From positions 683,501 through 747,500 of the forward strand of contig NZ_CP060719.1 in NCBI RefSeq assembly GCF_014396975.1: DNA of 64,000 nucleotides, in the 5' to 3' direction. The stretch is from Thermomonas carbonis. GTDB taxonomy: Bacteria; Pseudomonadota; Gammaproteobacteria; Xanthomonadales; Xanthomonadaceae. A program made the position numbers and the translations under genes. Shown here piece by piece: positions 41,706 through 50,001 of this stretch (its first letter is position 1; the number at the start of each line of letters is the position of its first letter). The notes beneath the pieces are model-generated. The model was given only the letters and a program-made list of their open reading frames with translations. It was not told where the DNA came from and did no database searches.

Positions 41706-42985
41706 CTATTCCCATAGTATTTCTTCAGGCTTTCGACTGCTGACTTGATCTTCGTAGCCTGCGTCGACGTGATGCAGAAATTGGTCGACATCCTGGAAAC
41801 CCGAAGCCAGCTGCAGCCTTGTCGTCTCCGCCGCTAGTGCCGCGCCGTTCAATAGGACGACCGGGTATTGATCTTCGTAGACCTCGCGCTGCACCGCGTC
41901 CGAGAAGAACGAGGTCGTTACGTAGGCGCCGAGCCATCCTCGGCGTAGTCGCGCCACAGTCCGCGCGATATGGACGCCACCGGTGGGAGCATCGATCTTC
42001 TCGCACTTCGCCTGACCGAGGACGACGAGTTTCGTGCGCGAAAGGCCATCGCCGATATCGATGCGTCCCACGAAGTCCAGCCCGCCATCGCCGGTTCCTC
42101 TCGTCAACCAGCCGCGTTGGTAGTGGGCCCCTGTCTCTTTGACCATCGACTCGCAGGCCATGCTCGCCAACGCCTCGAACCGATGGCGTTTCGGCTCATA
42201 AAAGTCGTAGATCTTTTGCAGCACTTTTCGCTTGTCCGAATCCGCCGGCGCGACTTGGTCCCGCTTCGGCACGATTCGATAGCGCGCCACGCGCCTCTTG
42301 AGCTTCTCGATCTCGGCGCTTCCGTACTTCACCCAAGCGAGCCAAGCCTTCGGCGCCATCGCGTTCGCGATCTTCGCCTCGTTCTTGGGTCTCGCCGATC
42401 GGCGATCCAGAGCATCGCCACCGATTCGTCTTCTTCCGTCAACGACAGGACGACGAGATCGAACAGATAATTGGTGAAGAAGCCGCCATTCTTCTCTGCG
42501 AATTGCGTAACCCGCCGAGCGCCCGTAATAAGCGCGAGCCCAGCGAACTCTTTGTAGCCTTTGCGGGAAGACTTGAACAACAAGATCGGCGCGGCCTTTT
42601 CGCGCTTCGCGCGATTAGGCGATGTGTGCAACTCGAACTGCCGAAGAAGCGCCCTGTTGCCTGGCGTCGTGCCGGGATCTACGTCGGGTGTCTTGTTGTC
42701 GCCGAAGTAGCGCGCGAACCCCTCATCCGGCGAGATCGTGTCGTGCCATGGATTCTCGATCGAGCCCAACTTGTTCTCGTTGCTTGAGAGCAGCAAAACG
42801 CTGAGCCTCTCTCCGTCGACCGCACGAGTGGCCGCTGGAGGATTGATGCCTTTCTCGAGCTGCAACGTCGGCAAGCCCGGCATGGAGACGACATAGTGAA
42901 AGTTCGGAATGCCGTCCACCACCTCGTCGCCAGGCGACGCGGGTTTCGCGTATCGATACAGGTGTCCGATCCGAAATCGTTTCAT
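41706..42985 (-). pseudogene. QAK-motif restriction endonuclease (MspJI/AspBHI-like), split by a frameshift
   Basis: Two overlapping minus-strand frames form one protein of about 426 residues. The first (42985 to 42329) carries an SRA-like region (HYVVSMPG, IENPWHD, TPGNRALLRQFELH), ending out of frame in an Arg-rich tail. The second (42359 to 41706) carries a PD-(D/E)XK nuclease with RGTGDGGLD, 20 residues, then QAK, the D-x20-QAK spacing described for the modification-dependent MspJI family. The second frame reads PKNEAKIANAMAPKAW through the junction, so one missing base near 42388-42405 explains the break. N-domain assignment is weaker than that of the nuclease. Convergent with the RcnB-like gene. 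Confidence 0.65.
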
Positions 42986-43004
42986 CGCTCCCCCAAGCGT
43001 TCGC

Positions 43005-43412
43005 CTAAGAACCTATGCGCGTCTGCAGCCGACGCGCCAAACGCTCCGGCTGTTTCAGTTCGCATTCGTAGACCGTGACGACCTTCCAACCCAACCGGCG
43101 CAGTTTCGCGGCCTTCCGCACATCACGGGCCCTGTTCGCTTCGATCTTGGGCCCCCAGTAGTCCGTCCTGGACTTGGGCATCTTGTCGACCTTACACGCA
43201 TGCCCATGCCAGAAGCAGCCGTGCACGAACACCACTGCGGCTCGCCCCGGCAGCACGATATCCGGCGTTCCGGGCAAATCTTTCCGATGCAGACGGAACC
43301 GGAAGCCCAACGAATGCAGCAATGAGCGGACCGCCCGCTCTGGCGCCGTGTCCTTCGAGCGGATTCGGGACATCAGCCGGCTACGCGCTTCCTGGGAGAT
43401 TCGGTCGGCCAT
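43005..43412 (-). CDS. vsr: Very short patch repair endonuclease (Vsr)
   Basis: 135 residues. Nicks next to T:G mismatches formed by deamination of 5-methylcytosine. Family residues are present: catalytic D51 in LPGTPDIVLP, H64 and H69 in FVHGCFWHGHAC, with the zinc cysteines in that segment. The N-terminus SRLMSRIRSKDTAPE is typical. Next to a cytosine-5 methyltransferase gene (divergent, 50-base gap), it protects the sites this enzyme methylates. Confidence 0.95.
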   Translation of the reverse strand: MADRISQEARSRLMSRIRSKDTAPERAVRSLLHSLGFRFRLHRKDLPGTPDIVLPGRAAVVFVHGCFWHGHACKVDKMPKSRTDYWGPKIEANRARDVRKAAKLRRLGWKVVTVYECELKQPERLARRLQTRIGS

Positions 43413-43462
43413 TTGCCCAGGATACCGCCGGGGTTGGGCTGGTTTGGCCTAATATTCACGCT

Positions 43463-44584
43463 ATGCCGAAGTCCGACACCCGACCCAGCGTCATCGATTT
43501 GTTCTCCGGCGTGGGTGGGCTGAGTCTGGGCGCGGCCAGAGCAGGCTTTCGGGTTGCGGCGAGTGTCGAGCTCGATGCCATCGCGTCCAAGTCGCACCAC
43601 GAAAATTTTCCGAAGACGGCGCATCTGCAACAGGACGTCGGCACCTTGTCTGGCAAGGCGTTGCTCGAAGCTGCCGGTTTGCGTAAGGGGCAACTGGATG
43701 GGCTAATCGGAGGACCGCCTTGCCAGGGCTTCAGCCTCATCGGTCGGCAGCGCGATGCCGATCCGCGCAACGACCTCTTCGGCCATTTTTTTCGCCTCGT
43801 CGCCGAAACTAGACCTGCGTTCTATTTGGCCGAGAACGTTCCAGGCATCCTCGGCACGCGCTACGAGGACTTCATTGAGCGCGCGATGAGCGCGATTCCC
43901 AAGTCCTACAGTCGGATCGCTCCGTTCAAAGTTCGCGCCAATCTCTATGGCGCGGCGACCACGAGGACGCGCGTGTTTTTCATCGGGTACGACCCGGATC
44001 GTATCGATCCGCTCTCCCGAGAGAATTTCGACCCAAGTAACGATACGAAGCAGACATTCGTGCGCGACGCTCTCAAGGGATTGCGAGATGTCGAGCCCCA
44101 TTGGCAATCCGAGGCGGAGAGCTGGCGGACGGTTGGCGAGCTACCCAAATCCCACTTCTGGGATCGCGTCACGAACAAGGTGCCGCGCGAAGTCGGCCAT
44201 CCCGATGCGCTCAACTTGCTGAAGAAGAAGCGGCTGGTCTCAGGCTTTCTCGGTACCGCGCATGCGCCAGAAACCGTGGAGCGATTCGACGCACTGAGAC
44301 CAGGGGAAATCGATCGCGTCTACCGCTCACCCCGACTCGACCCGGCTGGCTTTTGCCCGACGCTTAGAGCTGGCACAGGTCCTGATCGCGGGAGCTATCA
44401 AGCGGTTCGGCCGATTCATCCGAAAGCACCGCGGGTGATCTCGCCGCGCGAAGCTGCGAGACTTCAGGGATTCCCCGATTGGTTTGTATTCAACCCGACG
44501 AAGTGGCATTCCTTTCGGCAAATCGGAAATAGTGTGAGTCCACTTATCGCGGAGCGACTGTTAGAAAAACTCGCATCTAGTTAG
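43463..44584 (+). CDS. DNA (cytosine-5) methyltransferase
   Basis: 373 residues. Motif I is DLFSGVGGLSLG, motif IV GGPPCQGFS with catalytic C87, motif VI AENVPG, and motif X RQIGNSVSP at the end; the target-recognition region lies between about 190 and 320. Recognition sequence cannot be read by eye. A TAATAT box at 43450-43455 is only 7 bases before the ATG, so the transcript may be leaderless, a common trait of restriction-modification methylase genes. Start MPKSDTRPSV is preferred; the upstream frame overlaps vsr. Confidence 0.95.
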   Translation: MPKSDTRPSVIDLFSGVGGLSLGAARAGFRVAASVELDAIASKSHHENFPKTAHLQQDVGTLSGKALLEAAGLRKGQLDGLIGGPPCQGFSLIGRQRDADPRNDLFGHFFRLVAETRPAFYLAENVPGILGTRYEDFIERAMSAIPKSYSRIAPFKVRANLYGAATTRTRVFFIGYDPDRIDPLSRENFDPSNDTKQTFVRDALKGLRDVEPHWQSEAESWRTVGELPKSHFWDRVTNKVPREVGHPDALNLLKKKRLVSGFLGTAHAPETVERFDALRPGEIDRVYRSPRLDPAGFCPTLRAGTGPDRGSYQAVRPIHPKAPRVISPREAARLQGFPDWFVFNPTKWHSFRQIGNSVSPLIAERLLEKLASS

Positions 44585-44629
44585 CGAAGTCGATTACTCA
44601 ATTTCGCATACTCGCTTGCGAAACGTTCT

Positions 44630-45622
44630 CTAGTCGTCGACGTGGCGAAAAGCGGGATAGAAGCGCTGAAACCGCTTGTAGCTCGCCATCTCCATCAAGG
44701 ACAATTCCTCGTCGTCAGCGGGGAAGAACTTCAAGGCTGCAAGCATTTTTTTGCCTGCTTTCTGGAGATTGGCGTCAAGCCGAAAACGCTCCTTTGCAGA
44801 CAATACGGGAACGGCGATATCGTGGATTTTGTCCCACGACTTGCAGGCGAACGCCCAGCGACTGTAGCTCGACGCGGGGAATGGCTCCTTTGCCGCGCTT
44901 TCTGAGACAACACACGTGACGGTCAACATTCGCTGCCCATCAGCATACGATGTGTTTAGAACTGGAATGTAATTCAAGTTCGGTACACGAAGCTTTGCTT
45001 TGCTGCATGCGAGCGATACGCACCACACAAGCACATCAGCGAGCGACATAGGCGCGTCACCTATCGACGTCACCGACGTAGGAACATTCGCACCACCAAG
45101 CTTTTCTCGAAGCGCATCAGCGCGTTTCGCGGCTCTTTCTTGAGGAGTGCCAGAACCCTGCTTCAGGTTTCTGCCATCAGCATTCATAGTTATTCTGAAG
45201 ACATCACCATGCTTCAGTCGAACCAGAATTTCTTCAGCCTCTTGCAGCTGCGTACGATAGTTAGTTCCGGTGTAGTCAAGCCAGACAATGAAGTTACGCT
45301 TCGCGGGAAATTTTTCTGCAATGTCGTCCATTCTCGCTGGCAGATCCGCAGAATCCATCAGCGCACAGACGGTTGCATCTGTGGGGCGATTGAAGACCTG
45401 CCTTGCGACTTGATTTGAATCTTTATCGAATGAGAATTGAGCTTTAATACCCAACTCTTTGTAGACCGCGTAGTGATCGACTAAATGCCTCCCTCCCATT
45501 GATACGTAGATGTACGACTCGGGCCCTCGTGTTTGAAGCAGTCTGCCAAGCAACTCTACGAAGATCTGCCGATCAATGAATTTGCTAGGCCTTAGCTGGT
45601 ACGGAATGTCTGCACCACTCAC
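44630..45622 (-). CDS. Rossmann-like protein of unknown family, partner of the GHKL ATPase
   Basis: 330 residues, no membrane segment. The N-terminal half reads like a SAM-methyltransferase fold: IYVSMGGRHLVDH (a degenerate motif I), FSFDKDSNQV (acid after strand 2) and FIVWLDYTG (strand 4, acid). The C-terminal half is not recognised (PVLNTSYADGQRMLTVTCVV, FPASSYSRWAFACKSWDKI). Its ATG overlaps the stop of the ATPase gene by 4 bases, so the two are made together. Codon use and base composition are strikingly A+T-rich against the neighbours. Function unknown. Confidence 0.7.
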   Translation of the reverse strand: MSGADIPYQLRPSKFIDRQIFVELLGRLLQTRGPESYIYVSMGGRHLVDHYAVYKELGIKAQFSFDKDSNQVARQVFNRPTDATVCALMDSADLPARMDDIAEKFPAKRNFIVWLDYTGTNYRTQLQEAEEILVRLKHGDVFRITMNADGRNLKQGSGTPQERAAKRADALREKLGGANVPTSVTSIGDAPMSLADVLVWCVSLACSKAKLRVPNLNYIPVLNTSYADGQRMLTVTCVVSESAAKEPFPASSYSRWAFACKSWDKIHDIAVPVLSAKERFRLDANLQKAGKKMLAALKFFPADDEELSLMEMASYKRFQRFYPAFRHVDD

Positions 45623-47001
45623 TTTCGCGCTTCCTGGAGTGCGCGATCAAAGCATTCTTCTCCAACGACGGCAGGCTTTTCGTCTGAATTCCCGAACAGG
45701 AAATCGGCAAGTTCACGAATGGCATCATCCTTCTTTGCGAAAGATATCCGACGTAGTGGATTACGGACTTCTGGGACAGGCAAATTCGCTAAGTATTTTT
45801 TCGCATCCGCTCGTCCTCGGATCTTGCTCCCGTGTGACGAGGCTAGGCTCGCGTGCGTACGTACATTTTTCCGAACGGCTTCATTGAAGAATTTTTCGGC
45901 CTCTTCTTCCATTCCTTTCCACTTGTTCGTGAACGACGTAAATTGCCTGAGGCCTTCCATGCAGTACTGGCGCGCGAAAAGGTAGACCTCTTCGCCAACA
46001 TCTAAGTCCCGCTTCGTTGTCGAGATTGGTAGCTTCTCCGGCTCGTCCGTAGAGAAAATGATAAAGCCCGCTATGCTGCGAAACTGGGGGTGATACCTGG
46101 GCACGCCCCCGTCTCCCCACCCTGTTTTTGAAGAGCGATCATTTAGCAAGACTAGCCTGTCATTGCATATGACCGATATGCCCGCATTGACCGTCTCCGA
46201 TCTAGTGGCGGCTTCGTCGATCTCGTCGAGGCGCGTCAGGGAGCGAAAGAAGCCGACAGATACACGGATATGTACGCCATTTTCCTCGGCCACAAACTCA
46301 TAGGGTCGGATTCCGTTCTTCTTCTCGTGCTCTGTGTAGTACAGCTCGAGAGTCTGAGGCCTAATTTCTTCTTCGTTGACGAAAATAGAAAAGCCCTTCT
46401 GGATTAGATAGCCAAAGTGCTCTGCCACCGCAGCCTTTAAGGCGTTCACGAATGACTCATTACCGAACGACTTGGATATGTCTTTTCTCAGTGTTGGAAT
46501 GACAATTGTCACTCCTTTCTTAGTTGTATTCCGGACCTTCCGAATGGGCAGGTCCCAATCTTCATTTTCAGGATCCAACCATTCCGTTGTGTAGGAGACG
46601 GCGAATGCTCCATCGTCTGATCGAGATTCAACCTCTGCTTCCTCACCAATTTTGAATATGGCTCGCTTCATTCCGATTCCGTACATTCCAATGGTCGGAA
46701 TACCCGCGTCTTTATCAATTTTTGGACGACCTAACAAGAAAGCGTCTTTGATCGCACTTTCAGGTATGCCACCGCAATTGTCCGCAATATCAAAGGACTT
46801 CTTCGACAGAGTTATGCGCGTTTCGTAGCCCTTGTAGGCATCTTCTTTGGTTATCTTCCCTTTCAGCTTGCGAGTGGCTCCATCAACAGAATTGTCGATG
46901 AGATCCAAAATCGCGTCACTGAGCTCGATGTCGCGGGTCAACATCGAAACGAAGAATCGTTTGGTGGGCCCACCCCATATGGTGTCGGTTGTCGTAGCCA
47001 T
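45619..47001 (-). CDS. MutL/MORC-like GHKL ATPase
   Basis: 460 residues. The Bergerat ATP-binding fold is at the N-terminus: N-box DAILDLIDNSVDGA (N37), G1 box DNCGGIP (74-80), lid GIPTIGMYGIGMKRAIF (G2, 100-116). The middle includes ISTTKRDLDVGEEV near 330; the C-terminal 100 residues are Lys/Arg-rich, a possible DNA-binding region. MutL/MORC-like ATPases are known beside cytosine methyltransferases and Vsr in bacterial restriction-modification loci. One 60-base line in this gene (46681-46740) has 25 G/C, against 48 of 60 in aceE at 47281-47340. Confidence 0.88.
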   Translation of the reverse strand: MATTTDTIWGGPTKRFFVSMLTRDIELSDAILDLIDNSVDGATRKLKGKITKEDAYKGYETRITLSKKSFDIADNCGGIPESAIKDAFLLGRPKIDKDAGIPTIGMYGIGMKRAIFKIGEEAEVESRSDDGAFAVSYTTEWLDPENEDWDLPIRKVRNTTKKGVTIVIPTLRKDISKSFGNESFVNALKAAVAEHFGYLIQKGFSIFVNEEEIRPQTLELYYTEHEKKNGIRPYEFVAEENGVHIRVSVGFFRSLTRLDEIDEAATRSETVNAGISVICNDRLVLLNDRSSKTGWGDGGVPRYHPQFRSIAGFIIFSTDEPEKLPISTTKRDLDVGEEVYLFARQYCMEGLRQFTSFTNKWKGMEEEAEKFFNEAVRKNVRTHASLASSHGSKIRGRADAKKYLANLPVPEVRNPLRRISFAKKDDAIRELADFLFGNSDEKPAVVGEECFDRALQEARK

Positions 47002-47183
47002 GCCGTCCCCTTGTCAGATTCTTTTTCACGCCCTTCGGCCTTATACCCGATCCTAATGCAGGAACTTGGCCTTTCAATCCACTAGCTACGGTTATGACCA
47101 ACCATTGTGAAATTTTTACTATTACGCGGTGATCTGACTTCTTTGAACTCCGGCGCCTTTGCCCTAGGGCTGAACCCAAAACA

Positions 47184-47210
47184 AAAAAGGCGGCCATCGG
47201 CCGCCTTTTT
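47184..47210. terminator. Bidirectional terminator between the island and aceE
   Basis: AAAAAGGCGGCC-ATC-GGCCGCCTTTTT, an uninterrupted 12-bp stem with T-runs on both strands. It ends the aceE transcript and lies upstream of the ATPase gene, so it shields the island from readthrough. The 47002-47183 stretch before it is A+T-rich and has no ORF. Confidence 0.88.
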
Positions 47211-47227
47211 CTTTCCTACTGTAAGAC

Positions 47228-49915
47228 TCAAACCCCCAACGGATTCGGCTTCTCCGCATCCAGCTTGTAGAGCTTGATCGCGCGGGCCACGTCCTTGGCG
47301 GTGAGCTTGCCGTCGGCGGCGAGCGCGGCCACGGCGGCGTGGGCCACGTGGAAGCGGTCGACCTCGAAGTGACGGCGCAGGTTGGCGCGGGTGTCGCTGC
47401 GACCGTAGCCGTCGGTGCCGAGCACGCTGTAGCGCATCGGCACGTATTCGCGGATCTGGCTGGCAAAGATGCGGATGTAGTCGGTGGCCGCGATGGCCGG
47501 GCCCTGGCGGCCTTCCAGTTGCTGCGTGACCCATGCCTTGCGCGGCTTTGATTCCGGATGGAACCTGTTCCAGCGTTCGGCGTCCGCGCCGTCGCGGGCG
47601 AGTTCGTTGAAGCTGGGGCAGGACCAGATGTCGGACTTGATGCCGAAGTCGGCATCCAGCAAATCCGCGGCGGCAATGACCTCGCGCAGGATGGTGCCGC
47701 TGCCGAGCAACTGCACGCGCAGCTCGCCCTTCTTGGCCTTGCCCGCGTCCTTCAGCAGGTACATGCCCTTGATGATCCCGTCCGCGCTGCCTTCCGGCAT
47801 CTCGGGATGGGTGTAGTTCTCGTTCATCAGGGTGAGGTACCAGTACTCGTCGCGCTGCTCGGCGAGCATGCGCTGCATGCCGTGCTGGACGATGGTCACC
47901 ACTTCGTAGGCGAAGGTCGGGTCGTAGCTGCGCACGTTGGGGATCAGGCCGGCCTGGGTCTGGCTCTGGCCGTCCTCGTGCTGCAGTCCTTCGCCGTTGA
48001 GGGTGGTGCGGCCGGCGGTGCCGCCCAGCATGAAACCGCGCGCGCGCATGTCGCCAGCCTGCCAGGCGGCGTCGCCGACGCGCTGGAAGCCGAACATCGA
48101 GTAGTAGATGAAGAACGGCAGCATCTGCAGGTCGTTGGTGCTGTAGCTGGTGGCCAGCGCCATCCAGCTTGCGAACGCGCCGGCCTCGGTGATGCCTTCC
48201 TCCAGCACCTGGCCGGCGGAATCCTCGCGATAGAACATCAGCTGGTCGGCATCCACAGGCTTGTACTTCTGGCCCTGCGGCGCGTAGATGCCGAGCTGGC
48301 GGAACAGGCCTTCCATGCCGAAGGTGCGCGCCTCGTCGGCGACGATCGGCACGCAGCGCGGGCCGACCTGCTTGTCGCGCAGGATGATGTTGAACATCTG
48401 CACGAAGGCCATCGTGGTGCTGATCTCGCGCTCGCCGGTGGCCTTGAGCAGGCGCTCGAAGGTCGCCAGCGGCGGCACCTCCAGCGACTCCGTGGATTTC
48501 TGCCGGCGCTGCGGCAGGTAGCCACCCATCTTCGAGCGGCGATCGCGCATGTATTCCAGCTCCGGCGACTTCTCGTCCGGGCGGAAGAACGGCACGTTGC
48601 CGTCCTTGAACTGGTCGTCGTCGATCGGCAGCTTGAAGCGATCGCGGAACGCGCGCACCGCGCTGTCGTCGAGCTTCTTGGTCTGGTGGGTCGGGTTGAG
48701 CGCCTCGCCGGCCGCGCCCATGCCATAGCCCTTCACGGTCTTGGCCAGGACCACGGTGGGCTGGCCGACGGTCTTCATCGCGTTGTCGTAGGCCGCGTAG
48801 ACCTTGTGCGGGTCATGCCCGCCGCGGTTGAGGCGCCAGATGTCGTCGTCGGACATGTTGGCCACCATCGCGGCGGTCTCCGGGTACTTGCCGAAGAAAT
48901 GCTCGCGCGTGTACGCGCCGCCGAAGGCCTTGCAGTTCTGGTACTCGCCGTCCACGGTTTCCATCATCAGCTTCTTGAGGATGCCGGTGCTGTCCTTGGC
49001 CAGCAGCGGATCCCAGTAGCTGCCCCAGATCGCCTTGACCACGTTCCAGCCGGCGCCGCGGAACTGGCCTTCCAGCTCCTGGATGATCTTGCCGTTGCCG
49101 CGCACCGGGCCATCCAGGCGCTGTAGGTTGCAGTTGATGACGAAGACCAGGTTGTCGAGGCCCTCGCGGCCGGCCACGCCGATCGCGCCGAGGGATTCGG
49201 GTTCGTCGGTTTCGCCGTCACCGAGGAAGCACCAGACCTTGCGGTCGGTCTTCGGCATCAGCCCGCGCGCTTCCAGGTACTTCCAGCTGCGCGCCTGGTA
49301 GATCGCGGCGATCGGGCCCAGGCCCATGCTCACCGTCGGGGTCTGCCAGAAATCCGGCATCAGCCACGGGTGCGGGTAGCTGCTGATGCCGCGACCGTCC
49401 ACTTCCATGCGGAAGTTGTCCAGCTGCGATTCGCTGATCCGGCCTTCCAGGAAGGCGCGCGCGTAGATGCCCGGCGAGCTGTGGCCCTGGATGTACAGCA
49501 AATCACCCGGGTGGTCGGCGCTGGGGGCGCGCCAGAAATGGTTGAAGCCGACGTCGTACAGGGTCGCCGACGATGCGAAGCTGGCGATGTGGCCGCCCAG
49601 TTCGCCAGGCTTGCGGTTGGCGCGCACCACCATCGCCATCGCGTTCCAGCGGATCATCGAGCGGATCCGCCACTCCATGGTGGCGTCGCCCGGCATCGCC
49701 GGTTCCATGTGGGTCGGGATGGTGTTGATGTAGCTGGTGGTGGGGTCGAACGGCAGGTAGGCACCGGCGCGGCGGGTCAGTTCGACCATGCCTTCCAGCA
49801 ACTGGTGCGCACGTCCGGGCCCGTCGTGGTCGATGACCGCCTTCAGCGATTCGACCCACTCCCGCGACTCTTGCGGATCGGGGTCGTTCTGCAGCATCTC
49901 GTTCAGCCAGTTCAT
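47228..49915 (-). CDS. aceE: Pyruvate dehydrogenase E1 component (homodimeric type)
   Basis: 895 residues from the ATG at complement 49913-49915, starting MNWLNEMLQNDPDPQESREW. Thiamine-diphosphate enzyme that decarboxylates pyruvate and acetylates the E2 lipoyl group. The ThDP/Mg site is GDGETDEPES with the later LVFVINCNLQRLDG segment; GRTTLNGEGLQHEDGQS is also typical of AceE. An in-frame upstream Met adds 15 residues without a ribosome site. It is unlinked from aceF-lpdA (about 37 kb away), as in Xanthomonas. Confidence 0.98.
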   Translation of the reverse strand: MNWLNEMLQNDPDPQESREWVESLKAVIDHDGPGRAHQLLEGMVELTRRAGAYLPFDPTTSYINTIPTHMEPAMPGDATMEWRIRSMIRWNAMAMVVRANRKPGELGGHIASFASSATLYDVGFNHFWRAPSADHPGDLLYIQGHSSPGIYARAFLEGRISESQLDNFRMEVDGRGISSYPHPWLMPDFWQTPTVSMGLGPIAAIYQARSWKYLEARGLMPKTDRKVWCFLGDGETDEPESLGAIGVAGREGLDNLVFVINCNLQRLDGPVRGNGKIIQELEGQFRGAGWNVVKAIWGSYWDPLLAKDSTGILKKLMMETVDGEYQNCKAFGGAYTREHFFGKYPETAAMVANMSDDDIWRLNRGGHDPHKVYAAYDNAMKTVGQPTVVLAKTVKGYGMGAAGEALNPTHQTKKLDDSAVRAFRDRFKLPIDDDQFKDGNVPFFRPDEKSPELEYMRDRRSKMGGYLPQRRQKSTESLEVPPLATFERLLKATGEREISTTMAFVQMFNIILRDKQVGPRCVPIVADEARTFGMEGLFRQLGIYAPQGQKYKPVDADQLMFYREDSAGQVLEEGITEAGAFASWMALATSYSTNDLQMLPFFIYYSMFGFQRVGDAAWQAGDMRARGFMLGGTAGRTTLNGEGLQHEDGQSQTQAGLIPNVRSYDPTFAYEVVTIVQHGMQRMLAEQRDEYWYLTLMNENYTHPEMPEGSADGIIKGMYLLKDAGKAKKGELRVQLLGSGTILREVIAAADLLDADFGIKSDIWSCPSFNELARDGADAERWNRFHPESKPRKAWVTQQLEGRQGPAIAATDYIRIFASQIREYVPMRYSVLGTDGYGRSDTRANLRRHFEVDRFHVAHAAVAALAADGKLTAKDVARAIKLYKLDAEKPNPLGV

Positions 49916-50001
49916 CTTGATTTCACCACGGCGCGATCGGTCGGAGCCCGAGTCTAGCAAGCGTTCCAGCCAATCCGATGCTGCATTGCAGCCAAAATCC
50001 T

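Follow-up and report, generated by a model that had tools for sequence, protein, structure and literature searches.

The 64,000-nucleotide stretch of Thermomonas carbonis analyzed here, hereafter the window (contig NZ_CP060719.1, positions 683,501 to 747,500), holds an island at positions 41706–47001 that is flanked by a region encoding what we take to be a serine hydrolase and by a gene that is presumably aceE. Two reverse-strand genes of this island are our subject, one encoding a MORC-type GHKL ATPase of 460 residues (45619–47001, ATG start) and the other a 330-residue member of the family PF20553 (Methyltransf_35; 44630–45622, GTG start). Their open reading frames (ORFs) overlap by four bases, and we lean towards regarding the pair as the constant core of a mobile defense module linked to DNA modification. 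An initial annotation of the sequence had noted the overlap, the principal ATPase motifs, the neighboring Dcm-type methylase and Vsr endonuclease, and the A+T-richness of the pair relative to the methylase half of the island, and each of these observations was borne out.

The ATPase matches HATPase_c_3 (1.3e-10) and carries an N-box (D33xxxN37) followed by DNCGGIP (residues 74–80), GMYGIGMKRA (105–114), and TTK (328–330). Its S5-domain motif, GISVICNDRLV at residue 274, fits the GhXhhpXXRhl consensus that is described in the accessible text of PMC2292703 as uniting the MORC family. The MORC S5 motif was found in 62 of 64 surveyed ATPases, in none of six HEF_HK GHKL controls, and in 7 of 431 control ORFs. 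By its GHKL motifs together with the S5 motif, the protein is best assigned to the prokaryotic MORC family.

The partner had been thought to match no nameable family, a view that we can correct because it aligns with PF20553 over residues 1–328 (1.2e-66; 225.6 bits against a gathering cut-off of 27). The accompanying suggestion of an S-adenosylmethionine (SAM)-methyltransferase fold with degenerate motifs fared better, as a class I fold of this type is predicted with high confidence and the canonical glycine loop is missing. The motif II acid (E or D at position 66) and the motif IV residue D116 are present in all 39 aligned partners. By fold, the protein is a putative SAM binder or methyltransferase; the Pfam annotation of PF20553 says only ‘putative O-methyltransferase’. 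NCBIfam and PADLOC gave no match for the partner, and sequence searches against solved structures returned nothing useful for either protein. A resemblance to Trm1 was tied with that to other RNA methyltransferases, so no substrate is proposed.

A gene-neighborhood survey, which the initial annotation had proposed, covered 68 loci seeded from the partner: 23 bacterial (window included), 37 viral contigs, 5 from Escherichia coli, 2 plasmids, and 1 phage record. Left out before counting were 16 viral contigs already counted and the short loci L001, L011–L023, and L037–L045, which were replaced by longer stretches. In 64 of the 68 loci the ATPase is the co-directional, immediate upstream neighbor of the partner; grouped at 90% ATPase identity, these 64 form 51 clusters. 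In 58 of the 64, a potential start codon of the partner gives an overlap of 1, 4, or 8 nt with the ATPase stop. Such a recurrent gene order is not a matter of chance. Three of the four exceptions are cut by a contig end and the fourth, L064, has a partner fragment. At this last locus, on Sinorhizobium meliloti psymA (L064:3692–8837), other ORFs, perhaps an insertion, separate the ATPase from the fragment.

PF20553 is thinly spread, being present in 2 of 99 genomes of relatives (0 of 24 congeners), 5 of 398 from the phylum, 4 of 385 from a second class, and 9 of 296 from the family, in samples that overlap. An ATPase profile (E 1e-10) matches the same nine genomes of the family, and the two genes are adjacent in all nine. 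Distances among the ATPases and among the partners correlate at 0.96 (Mantel test on 30 dereplicated loci, that is, 42 minus 9 in which a protein was missing or short and 3 that were near-duplicates), compared with 0.56 for ATPase and Dcm and 0.55 for partner and Dcm; none of 2000 permutations reached any of these values.

A C5 cytosine methylase lies no more than six genes from the pair in 63 of the 68 loci. In the window it is a C5 cytosine DNA methyltransferase of the Dcm type (43463–44584, forward strand; PF00145 3.4e-52), convergent with the pair and the sole PF00145 match in its genome; its ORF opens at 43322, with the likely Met start at 43463. The five loci without a nearby C5 methylase are L006 (shortened ATPase), L007 and L009 (contig ends), L028, and L063 (DISARM). 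At L028:8780–16352 the pair is divergent from genes for a 469-residue unknown protein, an SNF2 helicase, a NOV_C protein, and an N6/N4 methylase, which together may constitute a further system with a helicase. Vsr was detected in 16 of the 68 loci, a count that includes the window and is subject to omissions by the ORF caller; the window Vsr itself (43005–43412, reverse strand, divergent from the methylase; TIGR00632 5.1e-46) is overlapped by a longer ORF and was added from the domain scan.

Nuclease neighbors were examined for chosen proteins only, and their census is therefore partial. HNH_2 proteins occur near the pair in L003, L005, L026, L027, and L034, a type II enzyme in L029 and the viral L048, and, on further viral contigs, an HNH gene in L055 and a type III locus in L057. 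An AspBHI-like nuclease accompanies the pair in the window and L024. The window gene (41706–42985), for a methyl-directed restriction enzyme, comprises two overlapping reverse-strand ORFs in different frames. The first (42329–42985) encodes the N-terminal, AspBHI-type recognition part and changes frame at its 3' end, and the second (41706–42359) encodes the C-terminal, Mrr-type nuclease part, with the break lying between the two parts. L024 carries a 428-residue homolog in a single frame; the window gene may be broken, misread, or naturally split. A methyl-directed nuclease beside a 5-methylcytosine methylase (41706–44584) would seem to attack its own DNA; possibly its specificity is different or the mark blocks it. 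Two further neighbors were seen elsewhere, an HhH-GPD glycosylase adjoining the pair in planctomycete loci where no Vsr was found (L007:2077–2799 and L010:11141–11788), and a 284-residue product encoded directly downstream of the partner (L105:9062–9916) that weakly matches a TIR effector model (9.9e-08).

The island is a mosaic, since its G+C content is 0.503 in the pair and 0.600 in the methylase/Vsr/nuclease half, compared with 0.67–0.68 in the flanks. L024, from another genus and also adjacent to aceE, shares with the window a similar Dcm (67% identity) and nuclease (75–78%; dN 0.18–0.20 and dS 2.1–4.3 for the nonsynonymous and synonymous divergence of the nuclease pieces), but its pair is distant (32% and 18%). 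The Dyella sedimenti locus L002 has a closely similar pair (82% and 76%), yet a different Dcm (57%). For the pair, saturation of synonymous sites between window and L002 leaves no dS (dN 0.12 and 0.17) and hence no dN/dS ratio. Methylase and nuclease have evidently been exchanged between loci while the pair was kept together. The presumed aceE (47228–49960, reverse strand) lies outside the module and marks its insertion site; a homolog flanks the module in L024, L026, and L035. At the same place another C5 methylase (26%) is found in the congener L091, and in L090 the hydrolase and aceE are 2.6 kb apart instead of 6.4 kb. From these comparisons, methylase modules evidently turn over on the 3' side of aceE in the Xanthomonadaceae (47001–47228; L024, L026, L035, and L091).

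Several copies of the module reside in mobile elements. Of 5426 E. coli genomes, 220 have DNA matching the ATPase–partner sequence. The match spans at least 80% of the query in 47, and the other matches, among those listed, cover just a short part of the ATPase. All five E. coli loci examined, two with long and three with short matches, carry the ATPase, PF20553, and a convergent Dcm. At the two long-match loci these are the only annotated genes between the portal and the replication endonuclease of a P2-like prophage, a site that we take to be the cos defense hotspot. Rousset and colleagues reported that the cos hotspot holds antiviral systems (PMC9122126); the main text of that article, in the form accessible, never uses the word ‘methyltransferase’. 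The three lambdoid copies likewise show ATPase, PF20553, and Dcm within the 3–4 kb examined on each side. The filamentous Pf phage PfAC20 (L062:280–3711) carries ATPase, PF20553, and a C5 methylase, and was published, according to the accessible part of PMC11878078, with the cytosine methyltransferase alone, as an incomplete system. On a Microvirga terrae plasmid (L063:1–15586), a DISARM operon has the pair between its drmMI and drmA genes. A tblastn search of plasmids and phages with more distant partners added no new record.

Because the pair is hardly ever parted in our survey, keeps methylases of several chemistries, swaps restriction-modification partners, and fills an apparent defense hotspot with a methylase alone, we read it as a defense module tied to DNA modification. 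We consider it somewhat probable that the pair is the constant core of such a mobile, MORC-type module, one that probably serves ATP-dependent recognition of non-self, and the pair thus probably helps bacteria to tell foreign DNA from their own. In the scheme that we propose, a DNA methyltransferase, usually of the Dcm type, would mark the cell's own DNA. That the ATPase is a MORC protein suggests an ATP-gated clamp, in which ATP binding would close a dimeric GHKL/S5 structure on DNA with the PF20553 protein as a putative subunit of the ATPase. The methyltransferase fold of this subunit would read the chemical state of the DNA or of the SAM pool or, less likely, add to it. On DNA lacking the right mark the pair would either stall or compact the molecule or license an adjacent nuclease; licensing may apply at loci with a nuclease, and the pair may act alone at those where none is seen.

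Several observations weigh against this reading. In 37 of 38 aligned ATPases the N-box general base is Asp instead of Glu, the remaining one being gapped, and ATP hydrolysis may therefore be slow or absent. The partner lacks the canonical GxGxG of motif I, having YVSMGG in the window (G43 is found in 38 of 39 aligned partners), so SAM binding is not assured. Since the survey was seeded from the partner, constancy of pairing holds from the partner's side, and ATPase relatives (at least 3049) outnumber partner relatives (at least 171, or at least 1038 with a distant-member profile) in searches of unequal reach; similar MORCs that lack PF20553 are therefore likely to exist. Neither protein is covered by a PADLOC model. 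Finally, no module nuclease was seen in the two P2-like prophages or PfAC20, although other viral contigs (L048, L055, and L057) do have a nuclease near the pair.

It is possible, if doubtful, that no nuclease is needed, and that methylase, MORC ATPase, and PF20553 suffice as a self/non-self system in which the MORC clamp would silence unmarked incoming DNA by entrapment and compaction. Eukaryotic MORCs repress transposons, and such a nuclease-free system, if true, would be a bacterial counterpart of this silencing. Eukaryotic MORC-1 entraps and condenses DNA, as stated in the accessible text of PMC8277788.

Alternatively, the partner could be an active enzyme that sets a second mark on DNA, RNA, or protein, with the MORC ATPase serving to open or move the substrate, so that the module would be a two-step marking system and not an effector. 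We regard this as unlikely, given that the motif I glycine loop is non-canonical, no target is known, and a mark-only system would leave residence in a defense hotspot unexplained. It is rather less likely again that the prophage form serves for anti-restriction or self-marking, as a cassette by which a phage methylates itself against host restriction with the aid of the pair. The two P2-like prophages and PfAC20, which have the pair and Dcm with no nuclease seen, would suit such a cassette, as would the same three genes in the lambdoid copies within the distance examined, but chromosomal copies often accompany restriction nucleases, one pair lies inside DISARM, and the pair occurs with very different Dcms, with DrmMI, and with an N6/N4 methylase.

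This exchange of the pair between restriction-modification systems also speaks against a role in regulating their genes, as might be supposed from the two-component-system-like HEF_HK/Response_reg_2 pair beside Dcm and Vsr (accessible text of PMC8011034). In all six HEF_HK loci examined, a GHKL protein and a second protein likewise accompany a C5 methylase, and four have Vsr, one of them as a fragment, but neither the ATPase nor the partner profile matches the HEF_HK/Response_reg_2 proteins at E 10, and a domain scan found no receiver or DNA-binding domain in either protein; we therefore hold regulation to be improbable. A dedicated MutL-like helper of Vsr in the repair of deaminated 5-methylcytosine would account for Vsr in the window and the other loci that have it, for the glycosylase next to the pair at planctomycete loci L007 and L010, and for a GHKL ATPase like MutL. 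We set this role aside as very improbable: 52 of the 68 loci showed no Vsr (the ORF caller can miss one), and the pair is also found in DISARM and next to an N6/N4 methylase, two settings that give no reason to expect repair of 5-methylcytosine.

The initial annotation had proposed an undescribed defense module. This stands in part: the pair recurs with a methylase and we found no prior description, but the partner family was already named, and we infer the defense role, together with the clamping, the reading of methylation, and the physical complex, from partner-side pairing, co-divergence, the MORC motif, the predicted fold, methylase company, methylase and nuclease exchange, prophage residence, and the one DISARM case, all drawn from sequence. 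Our literature search, with preprints, supplements, and most subscription journals outside its reach, returned no paper pairing PF20553 with a MORC ATPase, none on the three-gene module or the DISARM insertion, and no report of phage protection by the module. In the accessible part of the DefensePredictor article (PMC13092281), HATPase, REC, and MTase are figure-legend abbreviations, and one of its systems may correspond to the present module. A near-constant partner can now be named for one branch of prokaryotic MORC ATPases, whose biochemistry was still called poorly understood in 2021 (accessible text of PMC8011034), and PF20553 gains a function to look for. In E. coli prophages the unit consists of just three genes, which makes it directly testable, and the same part recurs in type II restriction-modification loci, beside an SNF2 helicase and N6/N4 methylase, and in DISARM.

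GHKL/MORC ATPases in restriction-modification neighborhoods (PMC2292703) and a parallel GHKL pair (PMC8011034) are already known, as far as the accessible texts of these articles go. Iyer, Abhiman, and Aravind described prokaryotic MORC ATPases beside restriction-modification genes in 2008 (PMC2292703), and the window ATPase has in common with them the GHKL and S5 architecture, the S5 motif, and Dcm and Vsr neighbors. A superfamily II helicase occurs in about 70% of their neighborhoods, whereas there is none among the six island proteins, and the constant partner here, PF20553, is unnamed in the accessible text of that article, whose Fig. 2 has uncharacterized X and Z domains. HEF_HK/Response_reg_2 (Bellieny-Rabelo 2021, PMC8011034, accessible part) is, like our pair, a two-gene GHKL unit beside Dcm and often Vsr, but its ORFs in six loci encode about 1000 and 570–720 residues, unlike the 460 and 330 here. 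Kinship between the two pairs was rejected, as neither profile matched across these six loci (profile search only). Response_reg_2 (PF19192) has no match in the window genome.

A PADLOC scan of the six island proteins (for Dcm, the best 25 of 62 matches; flanks not scanned) listed no DrmA, DrmB, or DrmC, and those 25 Dcm matches include DrmMII models, weaker than the MTase_II ones. The one pair inside the Microvirga class 1 DISARM operon is there as an insert or accessory. With type II restriction-modification systems that have Vsr, the window shares the methylase, Vsr, and a restriction gene, the pair being an addition that, unlike these systems, also occurs where no nuclease or Vsr was seen. 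MzaB of the MZA system is also a GHKL ATPase, although the window ATPase matches it far below the NCBIfam cut-off (0.0046; 15.4 compared with 850 bits). According to the accessible text of PMC12137116, VcSduA, a Shedu protein with a GHKL domain, similar proteins having earlier been annotated as paraMORC3, differs in being a single protein with its own nuclease domain, but offers a likeness in placing a GHKL ATPase in tested phage defense.
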